From positions 1 through 24,725 of the IMG/VR virus record IMGVR_UViG_3300008113_000556: a stretch of DNA of 24,725 bases; one strand, 5' to 3'. This DNA is from a virus. Below, one piece after another: positions 523-12,914 of this stretch (positions are counted from its first letter, which is position 1; each line of letters starts with the position of its first letter). Both the position numbers and the translations under genes were made by a program. The notes under the pieces were generated by a model. The model did not search any database and had not been told where the DNA came from. It worked only from the letters and a program-made list of their open reading frames with translations.

Positions 523-1365
523 ATGTTGAGACATCTAAAAGACTTTAAAAGCTTCTCTTTATTCGAAAATATAAAGATTGAAAAAATGGAACCTTCTTCT
601 TATAAGAGGGAAACTGTAACTGAGTTGCCATATACGGATCTAATAGAAGACAACAGGAATTCTTTTTTAAAAAAAATTATAAAAATATCAGAAGAGCTTG
701 GTATAAAACCTCAATGGCTTTTACATACTATATTCCACGAAAGCAGATTTGACACCAAATATCAGGACGGCATGTCAAAAGCTGTGGGACTTTTGGCTTT
801 TATGCCTTCGGTACTTAAGAATTTTATAAATCCAGAGACAGGAAAAAGCTATACTCCAAATGACGTTCTACAAATGTCCAACCTAGACCAATTAGATCTG
901 GTTAATGCTTTTTATAAATCATGGATATCTGAAATGAATCTTAAGGGTGAAATGTCTCCTGGTGATTTTGCATCTCTAACTTTTTACCCAGAGACAGTAA
1001 GGAAGGATTGGAAATGGGAATTTCCTGCTTATGTGGTAGACAAAAATATAGAGACGTTTAAGAAATTTCCTTCAGGTGGAGGTAAAACTAAGAAAGACTA
1101 CTACGAGTACATAGACCAAATCTTTAATAGTGACGAGGAACAGGACGACACTAACAACTACATCTTAGGTAATTTCACAGGGGCATTTGCTGACCCTAAA
1201 TCATACAGAACTAAAAAGCCATTAGAATATTATCGGGGCATTCTAGATGCAGTTGAGGATCCTTACATGAATCAAGATATTCAAATGCAAGATTTAGAAA
1301 ACACGGAAAAAAATAAGCAGGCTAACGTTAATACAGTGCCTCTAGGAATAAATACAGTGAAATGA
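523..1365 (+). CDS. Lytic transglycosylase (SLT-type), candidate capsid cargo
   Basis: A 280-residue protein with a soluble-lytic-transglycosylase-like fold. Seen: a helix (PQWLLHTIFHESRF) with the likely catalytic Glu at residue 73, followed by the family hallmark AVGLLAFMPS at about 87-96, then helical sequence. The family cleaves peptidoglycan glycan strands. There is no signal peptide or membrane segment. The N-terminus MLRHLKDFKSFSLFE has the shape of a T4 capsid-targeting sequence: a short aromatic/basic peptide ending L13-F14-E15, matching the L/I-x-E cleavage rule of T4 prohead protease gp21. Inferred role: packaged with DNA and injected to open the cell wall, rather than an end-of-cycle endolysin. 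The C-terminal 100 residues are polar and unrecognised. Its stop overlaps the next start (ATGA). Confidence 0.8.
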   Translation: MLRHLKDFKSFSLFENIKIEKMEPSSYKRETVTELPYTDLIEDNRNSFLKKIIKISEELGIKPQWLLHTIFHESRFDTKYQDGMSKAVGLLAFMPSVLKNFINPETGKSYTPNDVLQMSNLDQLDLVNAFYKSWISEMNLKGEMSPGDFASLTFYPETVRKDWKWEFPAYVVDKNIETFKKFPSGGGKTKKDYYEYIDQIFNSDEEQDDTNNYILGNFTGAFADPKSYRTKKPLEYYRGILDAVEDPYMNQDIQMQDLENTEKNKQANVNTVPLGINTVK

Positions 1366-1643
1366 TACTAAAAAGAATAAAAGATTTTACCTTAAAAGAG
1401 AATCTCAGCTATAGCGGTGAAGATGTAACAAAAATGCCCGTTATAGGTAGAGTAATAACCAAACCTATAGGTCCTTTTGAAGAAGCAGAATATGAAGTGG
1501 TCGAAATAATAGAAGATACTAACGGTAGGGATATTTACGTATGTAATAAATGGTATAAAGAATACAAAAGAATACCACAGCTTATACATTCAGAACTTGT
1601 CAAAGAATATATTCCGGTAGCTAAATTCGGAAACTTTTATTAA
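1362..1643 (+). CDS. Small hypothetical protein with a capsid-targeting-like N-terminus
   Basis: A 93-residue protein whose ATG overlaps the transglycosylase stop by four bases, indicating translational coupling. Its first residues, MILKRIKDFTLKE, resemble the neighbour's (both contain L/I-K-D-F followed by L-x-E), with L11-K12-E13 as a possible prohead-protease site. After this the two proteins do not resemble each other. The remaining 80 residues look like a small beta-rich domain (EYEVVEII, DIYVCNKWYKEY, and a YIPVAKFG tail). I do not recognise a function. Coupling to the transglycosylase and the shared leader peptide suggest a co-packaged partner; that is inference. Confidence 0.65.
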   Translation: MILKRIKDFTLKENLSYSGEDVTKMPVIGRVITKPIGPFEEAEYEVVEIIEDTNGRDIYVCNKWYKEYKRIPQLIHSELVKEYIPVAKFGNFY

Positions 1644-1663
1644 TAAAGTTATATAACAATAGA

Positions 1664-1735
1664 ACTAGAGGTTTCTAGTCACTTCCCGGTCAACAAACCG
1701 TAGAGCTTTCAGTAATGGACGCAAAGGAAGGGGCC
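1664..1735 (+). ncRNA. Candidate structured RNA / 5' leader element
   Basis: The 108-base gap between genes is much less AT-rich than other gaps here and holds nested stems. A perfect 6-bp hairpin lies at 1664-1679 (ACTAGA, loop GGTT, TCTAGT). A 5-bp helix CTTCC (1682-1686) pairs with GGAAG (1726-1730) and encloses a 4-bp hairpin at 1687-1700 (CGGT, loop CAACAA, ACCG). The strings CAAACC (1694-1699) and GGACGCAAAG (1717-1726) also occur, in order, in the core of c-di-GMP-I (GEMM) riboswitches. The second GEMM domain and the usual tetraloop hairpin are missing, so I do not call it a riboswitch. It ends 16 bases before the start codon of the next gene. Confidence 0.35.
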
Positions 1736-1751
1736 AAATAAAATAATCTTT

Positions 1752-2560
1752 ATGTATTATTCAACGCCAAGCGTGAATGTGGGAGGTTGTACCGCACACA
1801 TCACAAGAAACAGAAATAGATCTAAGATCTATGGGGATTCCATCTACCTTAAAGACGGAGAAAATTTCGAGATTAATTATTCAATCCCACAACAGCAAGG
1901 GTCCTTGCGAAAATCAATCTAAACGGTAAGAGTATTTCTGAATCTGGTATCGTATTAAGACCAGGAGAAAGAATTTATCTGGAAAGATTTATCGACACAA
2001 ACAATAAGTTTCTTTTTGAGACTTATGAAGTTGATAAATCCAACGAGGCTCTTAACGCTATAATTGATAATGGTATGTTAGAGGTTTCTTTCTATAAAGA
2101 ATCTTTATCTTTAACCAATTATACAGGAAGCAGTTACTATAACGGACCAGCTTACAATCCAACAATTACCATCGGCGGATCTACTGGAATTTATTACGGG
2201 GGTCATACTTCTGATGTTTTTGGGTCTTACTGTTCTGATACTAACTTTTCTTTAGGTGGATCCACCATAACCAATCTATTTACTACTACTAGCATGACTA
2301 ATGATTCAATAAAAGGATCCAATGCTAGTAATAGTTTAGAAACGGGAAGAGTCGAAATGGGAGAATCAAGTAATCAAGAATTTAAAAGCGTGTCTGCAAA
2401 CTTTATGTCAATAGCAGAAACAACTATTAAATACAGAATACTTCCAGAATCACAAAAACCTTTAGAGTCAGCTTCTCTCAGAAACTATTGCACTGACTGT
2501 GGCACTAGGATGAAAAAACAATCTTGGAAGTTTTGTCCTAACTGTGGTACTAAAATCTAA
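1752..2560 (+). pseudogene. Zinc-ribbon phage protein split by a one-base frameshift
   Basis: ATG 1752 opens a frame (MYYSTPSVNVGGCT...) that stops at 1920-1922. The next frame continues seamlessly (VLAKINLNGKSISESG...) from about 1901 to the stop at 2560, and its first ATG (2075) lies inside this continuous sequence. Restoring one base near 1896-1900, for example an A giving CAA AGG GTC, joins both parts into about 269 residues. The joined protein has a beta-rich N-terminal domain, a Gly/Ser/Tyr/Thr-rich middle, and a C-terminal zinc ribbon with two CxxC pairs (CTDC, CPNC). No slippery heptamer is visible, so a sequencing deletion or a real broken gene is more likely than programmed shifting. 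Function unknown. The late-gene style and low-complexity middle suggest a virion-associated protein. Confidence 0.65.
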
Positions 2561-2575
2561 ACCATACTACACAAA

Positions 2576-2606
2576 AAACCCAGGAGAGATCCTGGGTTTG
2601 TAGTTT
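2576..2606. terminator. Bidirectional hairpin terminator between convergent genes
   Basis: A perfect 10-bp stem (AAACCCAGGA, loop GAGA, TCCTGGGTTT) is followed by a T-rich stretch (TAGTTTTTA) on the plus strand and preceded by an A-run that serves the minus strand. It lies exactly between the plus-strand zinc-ribbon gene and the minus-strand gene that ends at 2607. Confidence 0.88.
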
Positions 2607-3410
2607 TTATAGATATTGATCCCAGTTTTGAGCAGTCTCCGCTTGTGAGATCTCTATATCAGTATAAGGTCTAATATTATTTACTGGTGTTCCTTGGTAA
2701 GCCATATAGGCGTCTTTTGGAACTGGTATTTGATATTGTGGTGAAATGTTTGCTGTTCCAGAATTACCAGCAACTACTGGTGTAGTTGATATTGCTGGTC
2801 TATCTTTTGGACCAAACATCCAATCATATGATTTTTTTGCAAATTTTGCTTCTTGTGTGACACCTCTTAAAGCTTTTATTCCTGCTGGATTAGATGCAAG
2901 TTTTGTTAATTTAGCTCCTCCCTTCAGTACGAAATTTTTAAGTGAAGTTAGTATCTTACCAATAAAAGGAGTAATACCTGAAAATTTAGTTAAAAATTTA
3001 GAACTTTTTATAAATCCAACTATCTTAGGAAAAAATTTAGCCACCGCATTTACAAGTGGTTTTAGAATAGATGATCCTAGTGCTTTTCCTTTTCCTAAAG
3101 CCTTTACTAGTAGACTTCCGCCTGCTCCTATATATTGTCCAAAAAGAGGTATGAGTCCAATTGCACAAAGTCCTGCAAGTAAGTATTGCCCTTGCTTAGC
3201 ATAGGAAACTAAATTTATTCCTTCTGCAACAGATCCTACACCAGGGATAAGAGCTGCAAAATCTAGAACCGTATTATACCAAGCTTCCATCAGTGGGCTA
3301 TCATCATCTAAAGAAAGATAATCTAGAGATTCATTAATTTGATCCTGTGTAAAAAATTTAAGAGAACGTGTTTCGAACAAATAGTCCTCCATAGAAAGGA
3401 TGTTATCCAT
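2607..3410 (-). CDS. Hydrophobic Gly/Ala/Lys-rich protein, candidate injected cargo
   Basis: A 267-residue minus-strand protein. The N-terminus MDNILSMEDYLFE fits the capsid-targeting pattern seen in three other proteins here (L11-F12-E13). Residues about 46-100 contain two LIP motifs about 30 residues apart (ALIPGVGSVAEG and GLIPLFGQY), separated by a hydrophobic stretch. This arrangement recalls the pre-toxin regions of bacterial polymorphic toxins. Residues 100-200 are Lys/Gly/Phe-rich and amphipathic (AVAKFFPKIVGFI, LKNFVLKGGAKL), compatible with membrane insertion. The C-terminal 60 residues are Pro/Thr/Gln-rich. No catalytic motif is visible. A membrane-active protein delivered with DNA is an inference. 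A late-type promoter box lies just upstream on its strand, and a terminator follows. Confidence 0.75.
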   Translation of the reverse strand: MDNILSMEDYLFETRSLKFFTQDQINESLDYLSLDDDSPLMEAWYNTVLDFAALIPGVGSVAEGINLVSYAKQGQYLLAGLCAIGLIPLFGQYIGAGGSLLVKALGKGKALGSSILKPLVNAVAKFFPKIVGFIKSSKFLTKFSGITPFIGKILTSLKNFVLKGGAKLTKLASNPAGIKALRGVTQEAKFAKKSYDWMFGPKDRPAISTTPVVAGNSGTANISPQYQIPVPKDAYMAYQGTPVNNIRPYTDIEISQAETAQNWDQYL

Positions 3411-3418
3411 ACTTTTTT

Positions 3419-3428
3419 ATTTTATATA
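3419..3428 (-). promoter_or_regulatory. Late-type promoter box for the minus-strand gene
   Basis: Read on the minus strand, TATATAAAAT ends eight bases before the ATG at 3410. The string matches the box in front of the first gp19 gene (21232-21241). The same motif in front of genes on opposite strands supports a real promoter rather than random AT-richness. Confidence 0.5.
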
Positions 3429-3474
3429 TCCCATTCCGATCGAAATCTTTTATCCTTAAGTTTATATAATTTTT

Positions 3475-3819
3475 ATGCTTTATAGATCAAATAAAATTTA
3501 TGTTGATGATTCATCTGTTCACGGAAGGGGAGTTTTTGCTTCTGCTTCTATTAAAAGCGGAGAAATACTAGAGGAATGTCATTACTTTTTATTACCAAAC
3601 GACATTGAATACACTCAGATTTTAAAAGATCACTTTTTTAGCTGGCCTAAAGGGGGAGAGGGATTAGCAATATGTCTGGGATACGGAAGTATTTTTAATC
3701 ATTCAGATAATTCTTTTAATGCTGACTGGGAGACAGATACAACAAAGAAAAAAATCATTTTCTTTGCTTTGAGGGATATTAATCAAGGTGAGGAAATATT
3801 TACAAATTATCAAAAATAA
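3475..3819 (+). CDS. Minimal SET-domain protein (putative protein lysine methyltransferase)
   Basis: A 114-residue protein that is essentially one SET domain, the fold of S-adenosylmethionine-dependent lysine methyltransferases. Seen: the N-terminal GRGVFA-x-x-x-I-x-x-GE motif (17-30), the cofactor/substrate motif FNHSDN (74-79), and the C-terminal ALRDINQGEEIFTNY (98-112), equivalent to the usual A-x-R-x-I-x-x-GEEL-x-x-x-Y with Tyr112 as the likely conserved aromatic. There are no pre-SET or post-SET cysteines. The size is like that of the chlorella-virus vSET enzyme. It is divergent from the 2607-3410 gene. The target is unknown: a host or virion protein is possible, but nothing in the sequence decides this. 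Confidence 0.8.
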   Translation: MLYRSNKIYVDDSSVHGRGVFASASIKSGEILEECHYFLLPNDIEYTQILKDHFFSWPKGGEGLAICLGYGSIFNHSDNSFNADWETDTTKKKIIFFALRDINQGEEIFTNYQK

Positions 3820-3855
3820 ATTGATAAATCCTTTTTTCCTATGCGGACAATACTC

Positions 3856-3876
3856 TACATTTGGAATGTATAAAAA
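3856..3876 (+). promoter_or_regulatory. Hairpin plus TATA-type box before the 94-residue gene
   Basis: TACATT and AATGTA (3856-3861 and 3865-3870) form a 6-bp inverted repeat with a three-base centre. It overlaps TATAAAAA (3869-3876), which ends nine bases before ATG 3886. The box resembles the late-type elements of this window. The inverted repeat could be an operator or chance. Confidence 0.3.
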
Positions 3877-3885
3877 CAAAACAAA

Positions 3886-4170
3886 ATGGAACCAGAAGAA
3901 ATAGAAAGACTACAGAATTTCGAAAAAGAAGTTGATAAGATGTATGATGCTCAAACACGAAAACTCTATAACTATATGTCTATAGAAGGATCGGAAGCTT
4001 TTAAACCTGGAAAGCCGCTGTACAAGTTTTTAAGCAGCGATCTTTTTAGTAAAATGATTGAGCACTTTGAATTAACTGAAGAATATGAAAAGTGTGCTTA
4101 TGTGCTAGATCTTTCAGTAAAAGTTAAAAGAGAATACCTGCAGGAATCTTTAAAGGAATTTAACAAATAA
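3886..4170 (+). CDS. Small hypothetical protein with an acidic, helical sequence
   Basis: A 94-residue charged protein predicted mostly helical by eye, with no membrane segment or zinc site. Residues about 60-80 (MIEHFELTEEYEKCAYVLDL) resemble the core of the 42-residue gene at 4268 (E/F-E-x-C-x-x-L-V/D-x-L), suggesting two members of one small-protein family side by side. The start is preceded by an A-rich leader (ACAAAACAAA) with no Shine-Dalgarno, as in other genes here. A hairpin and a strong terminator follow. No function assigned. Confidence 0.65.
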   Translation: MEPEEIERLQNFEKEVDKMYDAQTRKLYNYMSIEGSEAFKPGKPLYKFLSSDLFSKMIEHFELTEEYEKCAYVLDLSVKVKREYLQESLKEFNK

Positions 4171-4190
4171 AAAAAGAAACTTCTCAGAAA

Positions 4191-4216
4191 TTCCCAGTAT
4201 AATATCTATATGGGAA
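4191..4216 (+). repeat. Hairpin downstream of the 94-residue gene
   Basis: TTCCCA-G-TATA (4191-4201) pairs with TATATGGGAA (4207-4216), giving a 10-bp stem with one bulged G and a five-base loop. There is no T-run after it. It lies 18 bases upstream of a second hairpin that is a typical terminator, so the two may form a double 3' end structure. Confidence 0.5.
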
Positions 4217-4233
4217 AAGGAAGGAAATATATT

Positions 4234-4262
4234 AAAAAATCTGCTAATGGCAGATTTTTTTT
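4234..4262 (+). terminator. Rho-independent terminator
   Basis: A perfect 11-bp stem AAAAAATCTGC / GCAGATTTTTT (4234-4244, 4250-4260) with loop TAATG continues into a run of eight Ts (4255-4262). It ends the transcript of the SET and 94-residue genes. Because both arms are A/T tracts it could also work on the minus strand. Confidence 0.85.
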
Positions 4263-4267
4263 ATCTA

Positions 4268-4396
4268 ATGGAAGAATCTTTAAAAGAGAATCCCGCCACA
4301 ACGATCGACACTATAAATTATCTTATAAAATGGAACGAGTCAAATCAAAACTTTGAGGCATGTTCTAGACTTGTTAGTTTAAGAGATAGAATATAA
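4268..4396 (+). CDS. 42-residue hypothetical protein
   Basis: ATG 4268 to TAA 4396 encodes a 42-residue acidic, helical peptide. Its centre (YLIKWNESNQNFEACSRLV) resembles residues 60-80 of the preceding 94-residue protein, which is the main reason to believe it is real. It begins six bases after the T-run of the terminator, so its own transcription must come from read-through or from an unseen promoter. An overlapping frame from 4210 crosses both hairpins and is not believed. Confidence 0.5.
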   Translation: MEESLKENPATTIDTINYLIKWNESNQNFEACSRLVSLRDRI

Positions 4397-4425
4397 ATCA
4401 ATTTTTTTGAATCAAAAAGCCTTCT

Positions 4426-4463
4426 TTTGTCTATAATAATAGATTACTAAAATTATAGACAAA
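4426..4463 (+). promoter_or_regulatory. Inverted repeat ending in the start codon
   Basis: TTTGTCTATAA (4426-4436) and TTATAGACAAA (4453-4463) form a perfect 11-bp stem with a 16-base loop. The last base of the 3' arm is the A of the ATG at 4463, so in a transcript from upstream the entire initiation region would be double-stranded. It could act as a translational switch, as known for some T4 late genes with sequestered initiation sites, or as a DNA operator. Confidence 0.55.
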
Positions 4464-4768
4464 TGAGGGAAATTTTTATTAATGAAGGATTAAATGAGGG
4501 AAGAATGGTATCTGGGTCAAAATCTCTATATAGAGAAATGTTTCCGGATAACGAAGTTTATTTCAATGCTAACATTTTTGTTTTAGGTGAGGGAAAAATA
4601 TGGTATGGGGATCTTGATGTCACAAAGGATATAGAAGCCTTACAAAACGTTGCTAGTAGAATAGGTAGCGATCTTTACATCCTCAGAGAAATGGACGGAA
4701 GATTTGAGAATGAAAATATAGGTGATTCTGAAATCATTAGGAGATCAATGTGTAAAATAACTAAATAA
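4463..4768 (+). CDS. Small hypothetical protein
   Basis: A 101-residue protein, probably alpha/beta, with a distinctive central stretch (KIWYGDLDVTKDIEALQNVA, then LYILREMDGRFEN). No catalytic motif, membrane segment or metal site is evident, and I cannot assign a function. The start is taken at the ATG that ends the inverted repeat; the next ATG (4505) would remove 14 residues. Residues 6-8 (I-N-E) weakly resemble a prohead-protease site, but the N-terminus is otherwise unlike the four better candidates. It lies eight bases upstream of uvsX and may be co-transcribed with it. Confidence 0.65.
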   Translation: MREIFINEGLNEGRMVSGSKSLYREMFPDNEVYFNANIFVLGEGKIWYGDLDVTKDIEALQNVASRIGSDLYILREMDGRFENENIGDSEIIRRSMCKITK

Positions 4769-4776
4769 TTTAAAAT

Positions 4777-6012
4777 ATGGCTAAGAAAGAATTTTCGTTT
4801 GCGGAATTGGATAAACAACTATCTAAGATTGATGGATTTGAAATGGGATCAATACTAGAGAATAATGAATTCTCTGAGGTTACTGATTGGATCCCTACTG
4901 GTAACTATTTATTAAATGCTCAGCTTTCTGGGACATTGTTCGGGGGAATTGCTAACAATAGATCAATGGGAATCGCAGGAGACCCACAAACAGGTAAGTC
5001 TTTTCTTTGTATGAATATTGTAAGAGAAGCGCAGAGAAAAGATTATAACGTAATCTATTGCGATACTGAAGGCGCTATTGATAAAACAGGAGCAAAAAAA
5101 TTCGGTATCGACACAAATAAAGTTAGATATCAACCAATAAAGACTATTTCGGACTTTAAAGTATTTGTTGCTAATTTAGTTGATAAAGTTAAAGCATATA
5201 GAAAAGATGGGGCAGATCCTAAAATTGCTCTTGTTTTAGATTCATTAGGAATGCTATCAACAGATAAAGAAACTGGAGACGCATTAAAAGGTAAAAGCGC
5301 AATGGATATGGGGATTAGGTCTAAGGAGCTAAGATCATTATTTAGGGTTATCACTTTAGATCTTACTGCAGTTAAAATTCCTTTAATCTGTACAAATCAC
5401 ACAACAACAGGTAACATTGGTGGTTTTATGCCTACGAAAGAAGCAGCTGGGGGTGACGGTCCAATATTCTCTATGAGTAATGTGATTATGTTATCTAAAG
5501 CACAACTTAAAGAAGGAGACACTAAAACAGGTATTGTCGTTACATCTACTCCCAAAAAAGCTAGATTCACTAGACCATATGCTGTTAAGTTCCACATATC
5601 CTTTATGAATGGTATGAATCCATATGTAGGATTACAAGATTTTGTTTCCTGGGAAAATTGCGGAATACAAAGAGGTAAATTAGAGGTTGATAAAAAAACT
5701 GGGGAGATGGAATTTATCCCCAATGAGTCTTCTCCTAGATGGGCAGTTAGACATTTAGGAAAAACAGTTCCTTCAACTCAAATATTTACTCCTGATGTAT
5801 TTACTGAGGATGTTCTTAGACAATTGGACGAAAATGTTATACAGCCACACTTTAAATTACCTGATTTATTCGATGAATCTGAGCTTGAAGGTTTGATAAA
5901 CGGTGATACGGAAGAGCAAGAAGTAACTGAGTCCAATGGAGAAGAATATATTTGGTTAGAGACGGAAGACCTGACGGTGAATTTTCGGACCAAACTTTTA
6001 ATTCATTTTTAA
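4777..6012 (+). CDS. uvsX: UvsX-like RecA-family recombinase
   Basis: A 411-residue strand-exchange protein of recombination-dependent replication. Seen: Walker A GDPQTGKS (68-75), CDTEG with the likely catalytic Glu99, Walker B IALVLDS (Asp155), and the NH-T-T-T-G stretch followed by GG-F-M-P-T-K-E-A-A-GG, which corresponds to DNA-binding loop 2. The length is close to T4 UvsX (391). The acidic tail fits UvsX, but the last 18 residues in this frame look non-coding, while the -1 frame continues convincingly (see 5931-6143). The true protein is therefore probably about 60 residues longer. The leader TTTAAAAT has no Shine-Dalgarno. It heads the uvsX-41-47-46 cluster. Confidence 0.93.
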   Translation: MAKKEFSFAELDKQLSKIDGFEMGSILENNEFSEVTDWIPTGNYLLNAQLSGTLFGGIANNRSMGIAGDPQTGKSFLCMNIVREAQRKDYNVIYCDTEGAIDKTGAKKFGIDTNKVRYQPIKTISDFKVFVANLVDKVKAYRKDGADPKIALVLDSLGMLSTDKETGDALKGKSAMDMGIRSKELRSLFRVITLDLTAVKIPLICTNHTTTGNIGGFMPTKEAAGGDGPIFSMSNVIMLSKAQLKEGDTKTGIVVTSTPKKARFTRPYAVKFHISFMNGMNPYVGLQDFVSWENCGIQRGKLEVDKKTGEMEFIPNESSPRWAVRHLGKTVPSTQIFTPDVFTEDVLRQLDENVIQPHFKLPDLFDESELEGLINGDTEEQEVTESNGEEYIWLETEDLTVNFRTKLLIHF

Positions 6013-6143
6013 ATCCAGATTGGAAGAAAACTAATCACGGAAAATTAATAAAAGAGTTAATAGACACTGGAATTTTTGAAAAGACTGAGAAAAGTATAGG
6101 AAGTAAAAATTGGTTTAAAATAAAGGACAATCCACATTATTAA
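5931..6143 (+). CDS. Probable C-terminal part of UvsX in the -1 frame
   Basis: From a TGA at 5928-5930 this frame is open to TAA 6143, with strongly coding-like content (IYLVRDGRPDGEFSD..., NPDWKKTNHGKLIKELID, SIGSKNWFKIK). There is no ATG; only a TTG at 5952 could start it. Adding one A to the AA at 5945-5946 would give ...GEE-IYLVRDG..., joining it in frame to UvsX. No -1 slippery heptamer is visible. Readings, in order of preference: UvsX C-terminal domain with a one-base deletion in the sequence; a genuine split; or a separate TTG-started small gene. Gp41 begins three bases after the stop. Confidence 0.55.
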   Translation, partial: VQWRRIYLVRDGRPDGEFSDQTFNSFLNPDWKKTNHGKLIKELIDTGIFEKTEKSIGSKNWFKIKDNPHY

Positions 6144-6146
6144 GAA

Positions 6147-7448
6147 ATGCAGAATCAACACTTAGAAAATATTTGGTTTAGGGCAGTGATAGATAATCCT
6201 GCTTATATAGATGCTACTGATATTAGCTTTTTTAAAAACACGGACTATCAGGAAGTTTTTAAAGTTGTTAAATCTTTTTGGAAAAAATATCAGCAGATAC
6301 CAAGTAAGGTACAAGTAAGAGAATCTGCAAAACTTTTAAAAATAGAGGATAAAATATCGGATAGTCTTTTAGATTCTATGTGGTCTATATCCTTACAAGA
6401 TTATGATCCAGACTGGCTACAACAAAACGTTGAATCTTGGGTTGAATGGAAAACCCTAGAAAAAAGCGCAGTTGATTCAATAAACTACATTAGAAGTACC
6501 GAGGTTACTCCAGACAACATTAAGGATGTTATCAACACTTACAAATCTATAGTTGTTGACAGAAACAAAGTTGATTTTTCTTTTGACATGGGACTTAACT
6601 TTAGAGACCCAGAATCACACAAACAACCTAGTAATTTAACATTTTCTAGCGGATATGATTATATCGATTTCTGTTTAGGTGGTGGATTTTCTGCCAAGGG
6701 ATTATACGTTTTGTTAGGACAACCTAAGGTTGGTAAAACATTATGGCTTGGTAATATAGCAACTCAAGCAATACGGGCTTCAAATAATGTTGCTATCATT
6801 ACTCTAGAATTAGGTGATAGAAAATATATGAAAAGATTGGGATCTAATCTGCTTGGTTTAAGAATGTCTGAATATAAGGATAGTGCGGAGAACGATGTCT
6901 TGATAAAAAAGAAAATAACAAATCTTGCTTTTGAGAATCTAAGAACACCTGGTGAATTAGTAGTAAAAGAATTTCCAACCTCGCAGGCTTCTGCTATCGA
7001 CGTGGAAAACTGGTTAACTAAGGTTGAGCAGATTATGGGAATAAAATTCAAGATTGTGATTATTGACTATATTAACATCATGAAGAACTGGAGAAATCCC
7101 AACTCTGAAAATACATATATGAAGATTAAGCAAATAGCAGAAGATCTTAGAGCAGCTGCTCAAAGAAACCAATGGGCTATTGTAACCGCTACACAAACAA
7201 AACAAAGCGAATTTGACGCTACTGATTTAAGTATGAATTCAGCATCAGAATCATCAGGACTTGTTGCAACTGTTGATGGTATGTTTGGTATAATACAAGA
7301 TCCAATGATGTACACAAATAACGAATACAAGCTAAAGCTATTAGCAAATAGGGACGAGGGCTACAAAAATTCTTACAAGAAATTTATAGTTGATTACAAC
7401 TACATGAGAATTTCCGAGGATCCTAATTCTCAAATAATGAATGATTGA
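6147..7448 (+). CDS. 41: Replicative DNA helicase, DnaB-like (T4 gp41 type)
   Basis: A 433-residue protein with an N-terminal helical domain (about 1-140) and a RecA-like motor domain. Seen: Walker A GQPKVGKT (191-198), the catalytic Glu in IITLELGD (Glu221), Walker B IVIIDYINI (Asp307), and the DnaB H3/H4-like segment ending in ATQTKQ. It unwinds the fork ahead of the replisome as a ring on the lagging strand. The length is near T4 gp41 (475). Its position directly after uvsX matches T4-like gene order. The TGA overlaps the following ATG (TGATG). Confidence 0.93.
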   Translation: MQNQHLENIWFRAVIDNPAYIDATDISFFKNTDYQEVFKVVKSFWKKYQQIPSKVQVRESAKLLKIEDKISDSLLDSMWSISLQDYDPDWLQQNVESWVEWKTLEKSAVDSINYIRSTEVTPDNIKDVINTYKSIVVDRNKVDFSFDMGLNFRDPESHKQPSNLTFSSGYDYIDFCLGGGFSAKGLYVLLGQPKVGKTLWLGNIATQAIRASNNVAIITLELGDRKYMKRLGSNLLGLRMSEYKDSAENDVLIKKKITNLAFENLRTPGELVVKEFPTSQASAIDVENWLTKVEQIMGIKFKIVIIDYINIMKNWRNPNSENTYMKIKQIAEDLRAAAQRNQWAIVTATQTKQSEFDATDLSMNSASESSGLVATVDGMFGIIQDPMMYTNNEYKLKLLANRDEGYKNSYKKFIVDYNYMRISEDPNSQIMND

Positions 7449-7924
7449 TGAAAAAGCAGAAAAAACTGATTGAAGATGAAAAAGACGATCTTAACATAGA
7501 CGGGGAATTAGAAGGGGAAGATACCGGAAAGGGCGAAGCAGAGGAGGAGTTTGAAGTTGACCCAAACTTAGATTATAGAAGCATACAATCTATAGTCACT
7601 TACGACGATGAGGATTACATATATTCATGTAGTTTAAATGATAGAATAGATGAGATATTTCAAGAGTCGAGGTGGACAATTATAAACCCAAGCAAAAAAA
7701 TACCAAAGGATTTAATACCTTTGATATTTCAAGACATATTAAAAGAGCTTGAAGGAACTGAGTTTTCTATGGTTGAAAAATTTGTTGCTATTTGTGACTA
7801 TACAGCTATAAATTATCAAAAGGCTTATGAATCTATTCATATGAAATATAAAGAGCTTATAGTGCAAGAAATGGATCAAAAATATGGTATTTTAGGTAAG
7901 AAAGGAATCAAAAAAATATTCTAA
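7448..7924 (+). CDS. Acidic hypothetical protein in the replication operon
   Basis: About 158 residues. I prefer ATG 7448, which overlaps the gp41 stop, over the TTG three bases upstream. Residues 1-45 are highly charged (Lys then Glu/Asp, with EGEDTGKGEAEEEFEVD) and probably disordered. The rest is a compact helical domain (DRIDEIFQESRW, LIPLIFQDILKEL, FVAICDYTAINYQKAYESI) ending in a basic tail (GKKGIKKIF). No enzymatic motif. Location between the helicase and gp47, coupled at both ends, suggests a replisome accessory role, for example helicase loading, but similarity to T4 gp59 is not evident. Confidence 0.7.
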   Translation: MKKQKKLIEDEKDDLNIDGELEGEDTGKGEAEEEFEVDPNLDYRSIQSIVTYDDEDYIYSCSLNDRIDEIFQESRWTIINPSKKIPKDLIPLIFQDILKELEGTEFSMVEKFVAICDYTAINYQKAYESIHMKYKELIVQEMDQKYGILGKKGIKKIF

Positions 7925-9036
7925 TGGAGAAGTTTCCTAATATAAAAAGAATAATATTTATCACAGATACACACTTAGGGGTTAGAAACAACTCAAATGA
8001 TTGGATAGAGATACACGAGAATTATTTTAAAAATTGGTTTATTCCGCTCTGTAAAAAAATATACAGGCCTGGAGATTGTTTAGTACATCTAGGAGATGTT
8101 TATGACAGTAGGCAATCTTTAAACCTTCGGGTACTTAATTTAGGGATAGAGATATTCGAGGATCTTTCAGATATTTTTAAAGACGGCATTTTTATAATTT
8201 GCGGGAATCATGACATTTATGGTAAAAATACTAATGATGTTAATTCTCTTAAATCATTAAAATGGATTCCTAGAATAAAGATCTACGAGGAACCCGAGAG
8301 CATAATCATGGGAGATAAAAAAATCTTCCTAATGCCTTGGAGAAAAGATCACGATGCGGAGAGAGAAACCCTAAGGGATGTAAAACAACAACATGATTAC
8401 ATGTTTTGCCACACGGATCTTAAAGGTCTAATGTTTAATAAGTTTGTTAGAATAGATGAAGGTCTAGAATATTCAGACATAGACAAATTTGATAGAGTAT
8501 ACTCAGGACATATACATTACTCCCAGACATTTGGTAAAATGAGAATGCTTGGATCTCCCTATCAATTAACTAGATCTGATACTGATAATCCCAAAGGTAT
8601 AACAGTACTAGATTTAGAAAATGGTTATGAGGATTACTACGACAATGATTACTCTCCCAGATTTGTAAGGATGACTTTTGAAAAAGTTCTAAATTCTAAT
8701 CCAGATGAACTTAATCCAATATTTAACAACAATTTTATTGATATTTTAGTTGACCCTGAGTTAGCTGTTAAAGCACCTCTTGGACTACTAACTGAATATG
8801 TTAATCCACCCCTTAAAATATCCTTTACCCCTATCACTAATCCAGAGCAGGATTTAGTCGATGAGGGATTCCACGATTTAGAGGGAAAAAGCTTCTCTAT
8901 CCTAGATCTTACTAAGTTATATCTCGAAAAATGTAACTATGAGGACGATAAGAAGACTAAAATATACAACGCAATAGAGAAATTACTTCACAAGGTTTCT
9001 GTACAAGTTAGAGAAGATGAAGATCAAGAAGATTGA
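7924..9036 (+). CDS. 47: Recombination nuclease subunit, SbcD/Mre11-like (T4 gp47 type)
   Basis: A 370-residue calcineurin-like metallophosphoesterase. Seen: the metal-binding series D-x-H (Asp15, His17), GDVYD (57-61), GNHD (94-97), FCHTD around His163, and GHIH (195-198), all in the usual order. With gp46 it forms the Mre11-Rad50-type complex that resects DNA ends for recombination-dependent replication and, in T4, host DNA breakdown. The ATG overlaps the previous stop (TAATGG), and its 3' end overlaps gp46 by 20 bases, so the two subunits are probably translationally coupled. Confidence 0.95.
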   Translation: MEKFPNIKRIIFITDTHLGVRNNSNDWIEIHENYFKNWFIPLCKKIYRPGDCLVHLGDVYDSRQSLNLRVLNLGIEIFEDLSDIFKDGIFIICGNHDIYGKNTNDVNSLKSLKWIPRIKIYEEPESIIMGDKKIFLMPWRKDHDAERETLRDVKQQHDYMFCHTDLKGLMFNKFVRIDEGLEYSDIDKFDRVYSGHIHYSQTFGKMRMLGSPYQLTRSDTDNPKGITVLDLENGYEDYYDNDYSPRFVRMTFEKVLNSNPDELNPIFNNNFIDILVDPELAVKAPLGLLTEYVNPPLKISFTPITNPEQDLVDEGFHDLEGKSFSILDLTKLYLEKCNYEDDKKTKIYNAIEKLLHKVSVQVREDEDQED

Positions 9037-10684
9037 ATGGAGAAACGTTGCCTCGTATGGTAACAAGATCCAAAAATTAGAATTACCAGAAAAGCCAGGA
9101 TTGGTTCAAGTATTTGGTGAGAATGGTGTGGGTAAATCCACAATCTCAGATGTAATAACATTCGGCTTGTATGGAAAACTGGAAGGCAAAAAATTAAAAG
9201 ATATACCAAATAGATCCAACAAGTGTGCGTGGATGAAGATCGAATTTGAGCAGGATGGGAAGGTCTATGAGGTTGAAAGAGGATTAGAACCAGCTAGTTT
9301 CCAATTATCTATAAATGGTGAGATCTATGATCAAGCTGGGAAAAGCAACGTTCAGGATTATTTGAGCGATGACATACTCAAAATACCCTACTACGTTTTC
9401 AACAACACTATATCTCTATCAATAAACGACTTTAAAAGTTTTTTGAGAATGAGTACAGCTGACAAGAAACTTATAATTGATAAGATCTTTGGATTTTATA
9501 TTTTGAATGAAATGCGAGACATCCTGAAGGAAGAAAGCAAGAGTATAAAATCAACCATTGATAGATTAACTGGTGAAATATTCGCCACCGGAAGATCTAT
9601 AGCAGCATCACAGAGAGAGCTGGAAGAACTACAAAAAAGAATAGTTGAAAATTCAGGAACAGAGATCGAAAAGACCGAAGGCCAATTAGAGGATTATAAA
9701 GCATTATTAGAGATACACACTGACAAGATAAAAGATTTTCGATCTAAAGAAAGTCAAGTAAATAGATCAGTGACAGATTCCTACGAGAAACTCAGCGACT
9801 TATCCGCAAAAATAAAGTCACTGGATTCTAAAATAAATCTTTACAACGATGATAAGTGTCCAACGTGTTCTTCTGATCTGTCCACTGATTTTCATAAATC
9901 TGTTTTCGACGACCTATGTAATCTAAAAGAACAATATGCGGATGATCTTAAAGAGCTTAAGAAAAATTACGAATCTGCTAAAAAATCACAGAACAAAATA
10001 ACGGAAACGAAGAACGATCTTTTCTCTAAGGGCAGTAAAATTGAAACAGGTATAAAAACCCTAAAAGAGAAATTAAAGAGTCTTAAAACAGCTAAAAACA
10101 ATGACGAAGCTAATTCTATAAGGAAGCTCTTAAGCCAAGCGAACGATGATCTATCAGATTTCAACCAAGAAAAAACAGTTTACGAAGAAAAGCAAGGTTG
10201 GATAAAAACCCTTGATGAGGTACTGAGCGAGAAAGGAGTTAAACAATTAGCTATTAAGTCAATATTGCCATCATTAAATAACGAAATATTAAGTACCCTT
10301 CTCTCCTTACATTTACCATATAAGGTTGTTTTTAACGAGGAATTTAATGCCCAGATTTTTCATCTAGGGGAAGAGATATCTCCACAAACTCTCTCAACTG
10401 GAGAAATGAAAAAGGTTGACTTTGCAGTTTTAGTTGCTGTTATAAAACTAATGAAGATAAGATTCTCTTCTGTTAACATTTTGTTTCTTGATGAAATATT
10501 TAGCTCTGTTGATCCTGATGGAGTTCATAGCATATTAACAACACTGAGAAAGCTTTCTGACGATCTAAGCATGAATATCTTTGTAATAAATCATGCTCCT
10601 ATGCCTACTGAGATATTCGATTACAAAATAGAGATATCTAAAAAAAATAATTTCTCTGATATAGCTTTTGACAAGATATCATAA
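9017..10684 (+). CDS. 46: Recombination ATPase subunit, SbcC/Rad50-like (T4 gp46 type)
   Basis: A 555-residue ABC-type ATPase split by a coiled coil. Seen: Walker A GENGVGKST (34-42), long charged heptad-like arms (about 165-275 and 295-400), a zinc-hook CPTC (281-284) at their junction, the ABC signature LSTGEMKK (459-466), and Walker B ILFLDEIFSSVD (Asp492, Glu493), with the switch His in VINHAP. It is the partner of gp47, and the size matches T4 gp46 (560). The 3' end overlaps the convergent minus-strand gene by six bases. Confidence 0.95.
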   Translation: MKIKKIEWRNVASYGNKIQKLELPEKPGLVQVFGENGVGKSTISDVITFGLYGKLEGKKLKDIPNRSNKCAWMKIEFEQDGKVYEVERGLEPASFQLSINGEIYDQAGKSNVQDYLSDDILKIPYYVFNNTISLSINDFKSFLRMSTADKKLIIDKIFGFYILNEMRDILKEESKSIKSTIDRLTGEIFATGRSIAASQRELEELQKRIVENSGTEIEKTEGQLEDYKALLEIHTDKIKDFRSKESQVNRSVTDSYEKLSDLSAKIKSLDSKINLYNDDKCPTCSSDLSTDFHKSVFDDLCNLKEQYADDLKELKKNYESAKKSQNKITETKNDLFSKGSKIETGIKTLKEKLKSLKTAKNNDEANSIRKLLSQANDDLSDFNQEKTVYEEKQGWIKTLDEVLSEKGVKQLAIKSILPSLNNEILSTLLSLHLPYKVVFNEEFNAQIFHLGEEISPQTLSTGEMKKVDFAVLVAVIKLMKIRFSSVNILFLDEIFSSVDPDGVHSILTTLRKLSDDLSMNIFVINHAPMPTEIFDYKIEISKKNNFSDIAFDKIS

Positions 10685-11278
10685 TTGACTAGCGATATCT
10701 AGAAGTATTTTTTTAGTTTTTTCTGTACCAATAGCTTCTTTTATTGGGTTTATTAATTCTATAATTTTTCGTGCGTAATCCAGATCCATAGAAGATTCTG
10801 CGTGATTTGTAGCTTGTGTAAAACCAGAATCACCCCCTATACAAGATATTATTAAATTTTCAAGCTCTTCAATAGCTTTTGACACATCTTCTTTTGAGGT
10901 TTTTCTGTGTCTTATTTTAGGTATTTCATTCTCGAATTTAGCATAATTGAAATTATCAGGAACTCTTAAAGCTATGTGTGTTACCCCACCGCTTCTGCCT
11001 ACGAAATCTCTTCCGCCAATTCGGATTCTAAGAATATTTTCCGAATCGAGTGAAGATCTAGTTTCGTTATCTTTCTGATCACTATATTGATAATTAAAAA
11101 GCTCTCTGGGATTAGTTATGATTAATTTATCAATGTCTCTTTCAGATCCCATTGGTATAGTGGGATCGTCATTTTTTAACGTCTTATATCCATCTGTAGT
11201 TGATCTAATGTTAAATTTTAATCCGCTATCGGAAGACAAGCTTTCGTTAAACGTATTAAAAAAAGTAATGTGCTTCAT
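10679..11278 (-). CDS. Hypothetical minus-strand protein, candidate capsid cargo
   Basis: A 199-residue soluble protein. Its N-terminus MKHITFFNTFNE closely resembles the T4 internal-protein leader MKTYQEFIAE: Met-Lys, aromatic residues, and x-x-E at residue 12. Here the P3 residue is Phe rather than Leu/Ile. The remainder is polar, with a central Gly-rich strand region (ILRIRIGGRDFVGRSGG) and C-terminal helices (VSKAIEELENLIISCI, YARKIIELINPIKEAI). No known domain recognised. It faces the end of gp46 and is divergent from the 11323 gene. On its own strand a TATATAAGGAAAAG segment lies about 10-20 bases upstream and could serve as promoter and weak ribosome site. Confidence 0.7.
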   Translation of the reverse strand: MKHITFFNTFNESLSSDSGLKFNIRSTTDGYKTLKNDDPTIPMGSERDIDKLIITNPRELFNYQYSDQKDNETRSSLDSENILRIRIGGRDFVGRSGGVTHIALRVPDNFNYAKFENEIPKIRHRKTSKEDVSKAIEELENLIISCIGGDSGFTQATNHAESSMDLDYARKIIELINPIKEAIGTEKTKKILLDIASQL

Positions 11279-11760: not shown

Positions 11761-12597
11761 ATGAATTTTTTAGAAAAGTATAACACAGACGACGTATTTT
11801 TTAGAGGCATTATAATAGGGCTCTTAAGTAAAATGAATGAGGTTATCACTTATGAACAAACCGATAGCGATCAGAATGTAAGTAAAATCTATATTCCCTT
11901 CTTTTACTCAATGGTAGGAGATGAGCCATTCTTACAAGATTTTTATTTATCTTATGAAGACTGCGACGGAAAACCAGCATTTGCAGAGGGTAATTATGAC
12001 GTAGTTCCTAGAGGAATATTGGAATTAGGAACTATTAGAATAGACACAGGCTCTGCTACTACTAAATTCGTTAGAGGATCTTATACTAAAGAGGTGGAGA
12101 AAGAAAACGGTAGCGAGATGGTGACTTATTCTGCTTATCTGTATCCAATTCCTTTAGGGATATCTGTTAATGCTAAAATAAAAGCAGATACAACTTTAGA
12201 TGCTTTTAAAATACAACAAAGCGTGCTAGAAATACTTTACAAAAGATTCGTTTACTATTTCTATTATAAAGGATTTAGAGTTCCAGTTCAAGTTAGTTTA
12301 GGAGACGCACCACCTGACAAACAACCTAATAATTTCCAGATGTCTTATGGATCCCAAAGAGGAGAGGCTATAACTCTTAGCTTTAGTATGGAGTTGGAGA
12401 CTTACTTACCTGATCCGGATTTAACTACAGAGAGATTTAGAGGAAACTTAATGCAAGGAGGAATAAAATTAAATGTTGAGCTAGGAACAGCTCCCCCAGA
12501 TAACAGCACAATAATATCTGGTCTCGGAATATATGATATCAAGAAAGATATTACAGGTGCAACTGGGGCAACTGGCGAAGCTCCTTCGAATCCTTAA
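11761..12597 (+). CDS. 15: Tail-terminator / sheath stabiliser-like protein (T4 gp15 type)
   Basis: A 278-residue protein resembling T4 gp15 (272 residues) in length and pattern: an N-terminal helix followed by a strand (IIIGLLSKMNEVI, KIYIPFFYS), DVVPRGILELGTIRI, a central YPIPLGISVNAKIKADTTLD segment leading into a helix (FKIQQSVLEILYKRF), then strands ending in a FSMELETYLPDP motif. In T4, gp15 caps the finished tail and joins it to the head. The C-terminal GATGATGEAPSNP tail is collagen-like and low-complexity. Position before gp16-gp17-gp18-gp19 agrees with T4 order. The assignment rests on pattern similarity, not on a search. Confidence 0.55.
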   Translation: MNFLEKYNTDDVFFRGIIIGLLSKMNEVITYEQTDSDQNVSKIYIPFFYSMVGDEPFLQDFYLSYEDCDGKPAFAEGNYDVVPRGILELGTIRIDTGSATTKFVRGSYTKEVEKENGSEMVTYSAYLYPIPLGISVNAKIKADTTLDAFKIQQSVLEILYKRFVYYFYYKGFRVPVQVSLGDAPPDKQPNNFQMSYGSQRGEAITLSFSMELETYLPDPDLTTERFRGNLMQGGIKLNVELGTAPPDNSTIISGLGIYDIKKDITGATGATGEAPSNP

Positions 12598-12914
12598 GAG
12601 TTTAGAGGTAAATCCTCCGGACTAGACTCAGGTGCTTGTTCCTCTTTAGTTCCATCTAAGTTTTCAATACCTGCATCTCTAGATTTTCTATAGCCAAGAA
12701 GAGTAGCACCAATAGAAACAAGTATAATAGATTGAGTTAGGATATCTACACTTTTATCTAAAAACATTTTATCGATACATCCAAGTAAAAAACAGATACC
12801 ACCTATAAAAACAACATATAGTCCTGCTGTACCGCTTCCTGATGTTTTACCATCGGAATTTGAAGTAAGCTGTGCAAAGCTAAACTTCTCCATTTGAGCT
12901 CTAAATTTTTTCAT
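12594..12914 (-). CDS. Small membrane protein on the opposite strand
   Basis: A 106-residue protein with two probable membrane segments (about residues 31-52, GLYVVFIGGICFLLGC..., and 60-76, SIILVSIGATLLGYR), a polar N-terminus and an acidic Glu/Pro/Ser-rich C-terminal tail. The stop codon shares a TTAA palindrome with the gp15 stop, so the genes meet with no spacer. It is a single inverted gene inside the late operon, as expected of a recently inserted or separately regulated gene. A holin- or lysis-control-like role is possible from topology only; nothing specific supports it. Confidence 0.65.
   Translation of the reverse strand: MKKFRAQMEKFSFAQLTSNSDGKTSGSGTAGLYVVFIGGICFLLGCIDKMFLDKSVDILTQSIILVSIGATLLGYRKSRDAGIENLDGTKEEQAPESSPEDLPLNS

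Follow-up and report, generated by a model that had tools for sequence, protein, structure and literature searches.

Do proteins that share nothing else carry the same removable N-terminal label in a distant relative of phage T4, and does that label send them into the virion? The question is raised by a 24,725-nt viral DNA (IMG/VR virus record IMGVR_UViG_3300008113_000556, positions 1 to 24,725; "the window" below means this whole 24.7-kb stretch), a fragment with T4-like genes in which 27 open reading frames (ORFs) were evaluated. A first-pass annotation had proposed that four of its proteins, encoded at 523, 1362, 2607-3410 and 10679, begin with short leaders like those of the T4 internal proteins and travel as cargo inside the capsid. 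According to the window ORF list, all four begin at the positions and with the leaders that it described, and their bodies show no mutual resemblance. Our analysis makes it likely that these leaders are T4-type capsid-targeting sequences on cargo proteins, from which we infer packaging, cleavage, injection and the individual functions. The set of tagged proteins is far larger than the four first noticed.

A leader profile from the window and its relatives

The rule that accompanied the annotation, a leader of at most 15 residues ending in [LIF]-x-E, held for the four genes and discriminated poorly in the window alone, where 7 of the 27 ORFs match against 2.9 expected; the others are the ORFs at 22 and 4463 and UvsX at 4777. 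As this excess is barely above chance, relatives were needed to decide. The window terminase is nearest to those of huge uncultured phages and of PAU and PTm1 (identity 33-39%) and is less than 40% identical to that of any named phage. Relatives were collected through the 280-amino-acid (aa) protein at 523 (14 loci), the 267-aa protein at 2607-3410 (21 loci) and the terminase (79 loci), and eight relative contigs of 100-245 kb, referred to here as the clade, were read whole. Together with the window they gave 1543 ORFs, called, as throughout, by a simple longest-ATG rule.

Iteration from a seed regular expression, with the Glu as anchor, gave a profile that converged on M-x-x-[IL]-x-x-[FY]-x-x-F-[ILV]-x-E. 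At a score of at least 10 it recovers 53 of the 1543 N-termini; internal segments predict 1.9 and shuffled N-termini 2.8. Because the profile had been trained on the same 1543 ORFs, independent support was taken from held-out phages. At a score of at least 12, LR756500 has 21 such N-termini among 664 (1.1 expected) and LR745206 has 26 among 942 (0.9 expected), so that further tagged proteins, for which the first-pass annotation had suggested a proteome scan, do occur in the larger relatives. In T4, 3 of 260 N-termini score at least 8 (0.2 expected), and the T4 record names them as ipII, ipIII and the hypothetical gp61.1. The last (NC_000866, 18966-19130) starts MKTFKEFIKE, has the top profile score among T4 ORFs, and may be a further small internal protein.

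Since the seed expression imposed the motif, two seed-free checks were made, one on the untrained phages and one on aromatic frequencies. Across 601 N-terminal [LIV]-x-E sites, aromatic residues have a frequency of 0.21 at position -6 and 0.20 at -3, against 0.12 and 0.11 at internal sites, with smaller rises at -4, -5, -1 and +2. A looser targeting motif, hydrophobic-x-x-aromatic-x-x-aromatic, was also counted among ATG ORFs. In the clade and the window it opens 113 of 1498 (12.8 expected), and in 73 cases [LIVMF]-x-E comes after it (1.7 expected); LR745206 has it in 86 of 917 (9.2 expected) and LR756500 in 41 of 651 (5.8 expected), and it stands at chance level in PTm1 (3 of 294; 3.3 expected) and PAU (1 of 289; 2.1 expected). 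The bare expression M.{5,13}[LIVFM].E was uninformative, matching 22-62 ORFs per relative contig.

The constrained columns are those known from T4. According to a review of T4 head assembly (PMC9026906), targeting depends on residues 4 and 7 of the IPIII leader and processing on residues 8 and 10, and gp21 cuts after the Glu of L/I-x-E. On the T4 leader MKTYQEFIAE, Tyr4, Phe7, Ile8 and Glu10 correspond to -6, -3, -2 and 0 of the new profile.

Cleavage site, protease and leader exchange

If the leaders are removed in the prohead, a protease and its signature should accompany them. The gp21-type protease gene for which the first-pass annotation suggested looking was found in the relatives and is missing from the 24.7-kb window fragment: of 20 relative contigs, six contain a frame of 415-701 codons that scores above the PF03420 cut-off; four of five reference phages also exceed it, the match in the fifth, LR745206, being weak (20 bits). 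The segments GELDHP (GE-x-x-HP) and SSR (S-[ST]-R), which we take to hold the catalytic His85 and Ser140 of T4 gp21, are kept in the aligned copies and, by eye, in that of LR745206. The gp21 ORF spans 589-707 aa in G001 (56304-58391), G004, G005, G007, G008, LR756500, LR745206 and PTm1, 413 in G006, 246 in PAU and 212 in T4; the long forms seem to be fused to a long second region. A Gp23 capsid protein (E=5e-40) adjoins gp21 in the relatives. Near residue 43, the capsid proteins of the clade have HSLNE/SAGAY in 6 of 6 cases (a slash marks the cut), and the corresponding sites are HSINE/N and HELYE/N in two huge phages and SFLTE/A in T4.

The leaders end in a similar way. Ser, Asn, Ala or Gly follows the leader Glu, at a position outside the profile, in 52 of the 99 strict leaders against a background of 24.9% (p=3.6e-9), a count that retains as false positives SmpB, a 2-oxoglutarate (2OG) oxygenase, window ORF 4463 and three paralogous KNYEKQIEE-type starts, and probably a 60-aa ORF at 98966 of G004 as well. 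The SmpB and 2OG oxygenase matches are probably native N-termini. LR745206 also has 25 leaders of the form M...[LI]FE, and in 20 of these one of the same four residues comes next (p=1.2e-8). This bias, together with the same site in the capsid protein, points to the prohead protease, and we infer from the two that the cut would fall after the Glu of L/I-x-E.

Computational comparison shows the exchange of tags between bodies, as it does the motif, its conservation and, in the relatives, the protease and capsid site. The 99 strict leaders are spread over 76 body clusters. Among proteins with non-homologous bodies, leader similarity is 25.4 within a phage and 18.5 between phages, a difference of 6.8, where 300 shuffles reached no more than 2.2. 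For all pairs of the 21 strict leaders of LR756500, mean identity is 0.72 in the leader, 0.37 in the body and 0.39 upstream, and in its genes at 313909 and 315677 the leader DNA is identical over 39 of 39 nt, with body and upstream identities of 41% and 47%. These genes belong to a run of four consecutive genes (313382-316693) with near-identical leaders and different bodies. Homologues retain a leader while bodies differ, as the annotation had expected, and exchange was seen in both directions: different leaders on one body, and one 39-nt leader on unrelated bodies.

Tagged genes also differ from other genes in distribution. The solitary opposite-strand location to which the annotation had drawn attention is over-represented among them (13 of 95 against 70 of 1324, p=0.0025), and they form 17 adjacent pairs where 6.2 are expected. 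They have homologues in 2.04 of 7 sister contigs against 2.96 for other genes (p=0.005), the share with homologues in none being equal (0.24).

The four window genes and the range of tagged bodies

Within the window, only 2607-3410 and the ORF at 4463 (MREIFINE, score 12.7) pass the strict profile, and the latter was dropped as a tagged gene because its motif, the Glu included, is unconserved among homologues. Orthologues of the other three genes carry canonical leaders, namely MLKHLRDFKNFLNE (21.0) for 523, MKIKRLRDFLVE (8.8) for 1362 and MKTFKDFIYE (17.1) for 10679. Positions of the IPIII type, 4 and 7 for targeting and 8 and 10 for processing, are present in the clade profile, in 2607-3410 itself and, for 523, 1362 and 10679, through orthologues, the spacing of the window copies being altered. 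Of the four leaders, that of 2607-3410 is strongly supported, those of 523 and 1362 have good support, and support for that of 10679 is weak. The features are listed in Table 1.

Table 1. Putative leaders and candidate cargo genes of the window
Feature	Coordinates	Strand	Basis or prediction
Leader MLRHLKDFKSFSLFE	523..567	+	predicted cut between E15 and N16
Candidate tagged cargo, putative SLT-type lytic transglycosylase (280 aa)	523..1365	+	SLT-type matches; 14 loci in IMG/VR
Leader MILKRIKDFTLKE	1362..1400	+	predicted cut between E13 and N14
Candidate tagged cargo, 93-aa protein with small beta (SH3-like) barrel	1362..1643	+	structure model
Leader MDNILSMEDYLFE	3372..3410	-	predicted cut between E13 and T14; profile score 19.5
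Candidate tagged cargo, hydrophobic and helical (267 aa), encoded by a solitary minus-strand gene	2607..3410	-	21 loci in viral contigs
Leader MKHITFFNTFNE	11243..11278	-	predicted cut between E12 and S13, weakest site
Candidate tagged cargo (199 aa), inserted as a single accessory gene between gp46 and the next gene	10679..11278	-	site comparison

All 17 distinct sequences of the 523 family retain the Glu and [LM]-x-E, although indels occur and leader length varies; L009 and L013 have the canonical form. The body matches a PHROG transglycosylase (5e-5), a lytic transglycosidase of known structure (PDB 9udh, E=0.0028) and Pfam SLT (E=0.0033, at 17.4 bits under the 21.3 cut-off), and contains a Glu-Ser motif.

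For the protein at 1362, F9 and E13 are invariant and [LIV]-x-E is found in 10 of 10 aligned sequences. More distant copies of the 93-aa body carry wholly different, canonical leaders (MLKHISEYPDFINE, MLNHLSPYSEFLNE and the GTG-started MKIKKLTEFLIE). L312 and L313 have an additional domain between a leader-like start and a body of this type. The structure model has a predicted local distance difference test (pLDDT) score of 72 overall and about 80-88 at residues 21-60, with middling structure matches (VIA Z below 5). A ribosome-binding role was considered for this protein and not adopted: the top Foldseek row is PHIKZ014 (E=0.056), but its VIA Z of 4.5 is tied with many SH3- or Sm-like folds.

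In the 267-aa family, M1 and E13 are the only invariant columns before F20 (16 sequences), and 17 of 20 homologue rows score at least 8. This protein has no relative in genome_contigs and no Pfam or PHROG match, and its structure model is unusable (pLDDT 47). Its profile gave weak matches to solved structures, the best (E=0.012) to a ribosomal protein, and these were set aside. The adjoining ORF (3475-3819), also present in G001 and G003, has a start (GRGVFA...) that we presume to be SET-domain-like.

Relatives of the 199-aa protein, none by a first scan and seven by an alignment query, bring its body to eight contigs, five of them with a Glu-ended leader; row L004, a truncated reading of the contig of L018, was dropped. 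The homologue leaders are MKTFKDFIYE (L290, L291 and L295) and MKYLIPFNE (L296). Its insertion site is empty (10-54 bp) in 46 of 48 contigs and occupied in the window and one other; in G003 the gene sits elsewhere in the contig.

A Pfam and PHROG scan covered 87 of 98 listed tagged bodies, the remainder being one that ran across a region end and 10 that were for the most part short or doubtful. Peptidoglycan hydrolases recur in non-homologous forms: the window has the putative SLT protein, G004 and G005 have PHROG endolysin families, and G006 has CHAP. Further tagged bodies comprise an AAA ATPase in G006, five leucine-rich-repeat (LRR) proteins and a PNK3P phosphatase in LR756500 and, in LR745206, a T4-type RNA ligase, a SMODS-associated NUDIX, a DHH protein, and a 2H phosphoesterase joined to RNase_T. 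In the last (448257-449573), the phosphoesterase is fused to an RNase_T exonuclease domain, and its match to the Acb1 profile (6.7e-5) is below the cut-off. The union of leader forms in LR745206 covers 100 of 942 N-termini in 92 body clusters, with about 10 expected by chance.

Three neighbouring loci of the window were also noted. Relatives have an unbroken zinc-ribbon gene of 251-288 aa where the window, at 1752-2560, has two pieces separated by a frameshift (1752-1922 and 2075-2560). The end of uvsX and the next small gene (about 5940-6143) look frame-disrupted in comparison with G001 and G003, with a 63-aa TTG ORF in place of a 97-aa gene. A solitary minus-strand gene at 12594-12914 encodes a 106-aa membrane-like protein without a leader and is kept near the terminase in many relatives.

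Interpretation and comparison with known systems

We propose that during prohead assembly the amphipathic leader, with its aromatic pair three residues apart, would bind the scaffolding core and bring the attached protein into the head. A gp21-type serine protease would release the body by cutting behind the Glu of [LIVM]-x-E, as part of the processing round in which the major capsid protein is trimmed at SLNE/S, and DNA would then be packaged around the freed proteins. Some or all of them may enter the host together with the DNA and act immediately upon entry: peptidoglycan hydrolases, such as the putative SLT protein at 523, could open the wall for a large genome, and other bodies could act against host defences or in DNA or RNA repair. 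As any body behind a modular tag would become cargo, the repertoire would turn over quickly.

Several observations weigh against this proposal. PAU (0 of 291 at a score of at least 8) and PTm1 (1 of 304 at a score of at least 12) show no enrichment though both encode gp21; the aromatic part occurs with no subsequent cleavage site in many further N-termini; and some tagged-looking proteins, SmpB and the 2OG oxygenase for example, are ordinary enzymes whose native N-terminus is merely tag-like. The window itself, besides lacking gp21, showed no gp23. Three of its four leaders (523, 1362 and 10679) fail the strict profile on spacing, and that of 10679 ends in F-N-E, outside the L/I-x-E rule. One 267-aa homologue (L156) has no clear cleavable leader, and the 199-aa body has none in three of eight contigs (L292-L294).

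An unlikely alternative, and the one we take most seriously, is that the leaders are gp21-cleavable head propeptides of structural prohead-core or inner-head proteins rather than of injected effectors. Head-cluster proteins beside gp21 and gp23 also bear N-terminal [IL]-x-E sites (e.g., IDEGFLSSLFG and LNEGLGDTI), and in T4 the core proteins, too, are substrates of this protease (PMC9026906). However, tagged genes are less conserved, scattered and at times single-gene insertions, which fits delivered cargo better than scaffold, as do those bodies that are enzymes or repeat proteins (SLT, CHAP, RNA ligase, PNK3P and LRR). We give still less credence to a general localisation tag that would direct the proteins elsewhere, for instance to the membrane or to a replication compartment, the Glu then being no cleavage site. 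The tagged-looking proteins of LR745206 are very numerous (the union of 100 of 942), include nucleic-acid enzymes and often lack an obvious cleavage site, but the Ser, Asn, Ala or Gly bias after the Glu and the same capsid-protein site indicate the prohead protease, and the profile independently recovers T4 internal proteins.

Most improbable of all is that translation initiation, codon bias or chance shaped these N-termini. The genomes are AT-rich, early codons often read ATGAA(A/G)(T/A)AT, and the window by itself gives only the 7 of 27 matches against 2.9 expected. This reading is largely contradicted by conservation at the protein level: conserved residues use varying synonymous codons (TAT/TAC, ATA/ATT and TTA/TTG), indels in homologue leaders restore [LI]-x-E, and at a score of at least 10 the matching N-termini exceed the shuffled ones about 19-fold.

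On the capsid-targeting reading, the clade system would be a variant of T4 capsid targeting in phages far removed from T4, a single genome tagging up to dozens of proteins. Like T4 IPI-IPIII, it has a 10-19-residue N-terminal propeptide with matching aromatic spacing and an L/I-x-E end, a common leader on unrelated bodies and, in relatives, a gp21-type protease and Gp23. Unlike them, it belongs to very distant phages and has mostly 13-residue leaders, lineage-specific dialects and many more tagged proteins, with peptidoglycan hydrolase, RNA ligase, LRR and 2H-phosphoesterase domains among the bodies. Known tagged sets number three proteins in T4 and at least 10 across its relatives (PMC12373910), and IPIII without its leader functions when made in the host (PMC9391042). 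In phiKZ and SPN3US, as proposed for the clade, many packaged proteins are trimmed after Glu by a gp21-related protease (PMC5694885, PMC9026906). Several propeptides there exceed 100 residues and one alone has the length of a capsid-targeting sequence, whereas those of the clade have 10-16 residues and a recognisable consensus. An N-terminal segment of phage P1 DarB suffices to send a reporter into the capsid (PMC9024508), but that source reports no common consensus for the Dar proteins. A literature search, with most subscription papers and all preprints outside its scope, found no T4-type leader set for this clade, LR756500 or LR745206. Assignment of the clade to the bS21-encoding Bacteroidetes phages (PMC9723584) was considered and not adopted, bS21 being present in 3 of 12 records, including 2 of the 8 clade contigs.

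A bolder and decidedly tentative extension is that some huge T4-related phages run a general protein-delivery system, in which a lineage-specific cleavable tag marks about one-tenth of the proteome, as the LR745206 union would suggest, the virion injects dozens of proteins (LRR, RNA-repair, peptidoglycan hydrolases and a 2H-phosphoesterase with weak similarity to Acb1, an anti-CBASS protein), and the tag spreads between genes as a small DNA cassette. If capsid targeting is the function of these leaders, sequence alone would tell which of the hundreds of unknown proteins in large uncultured phages ride in the virion and reach the host first; single genomes show at least 20 tagged proteins at the strict threshold, against the small known sets. 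Anti-defence proteins would be expected among such cargo, since T4 Ip1-3, of which the leader is the only common part, all block type IV restriction enzymes (PMC12373910), and the lineage-specific tags would suit targeted loading of proteins into phage heads.

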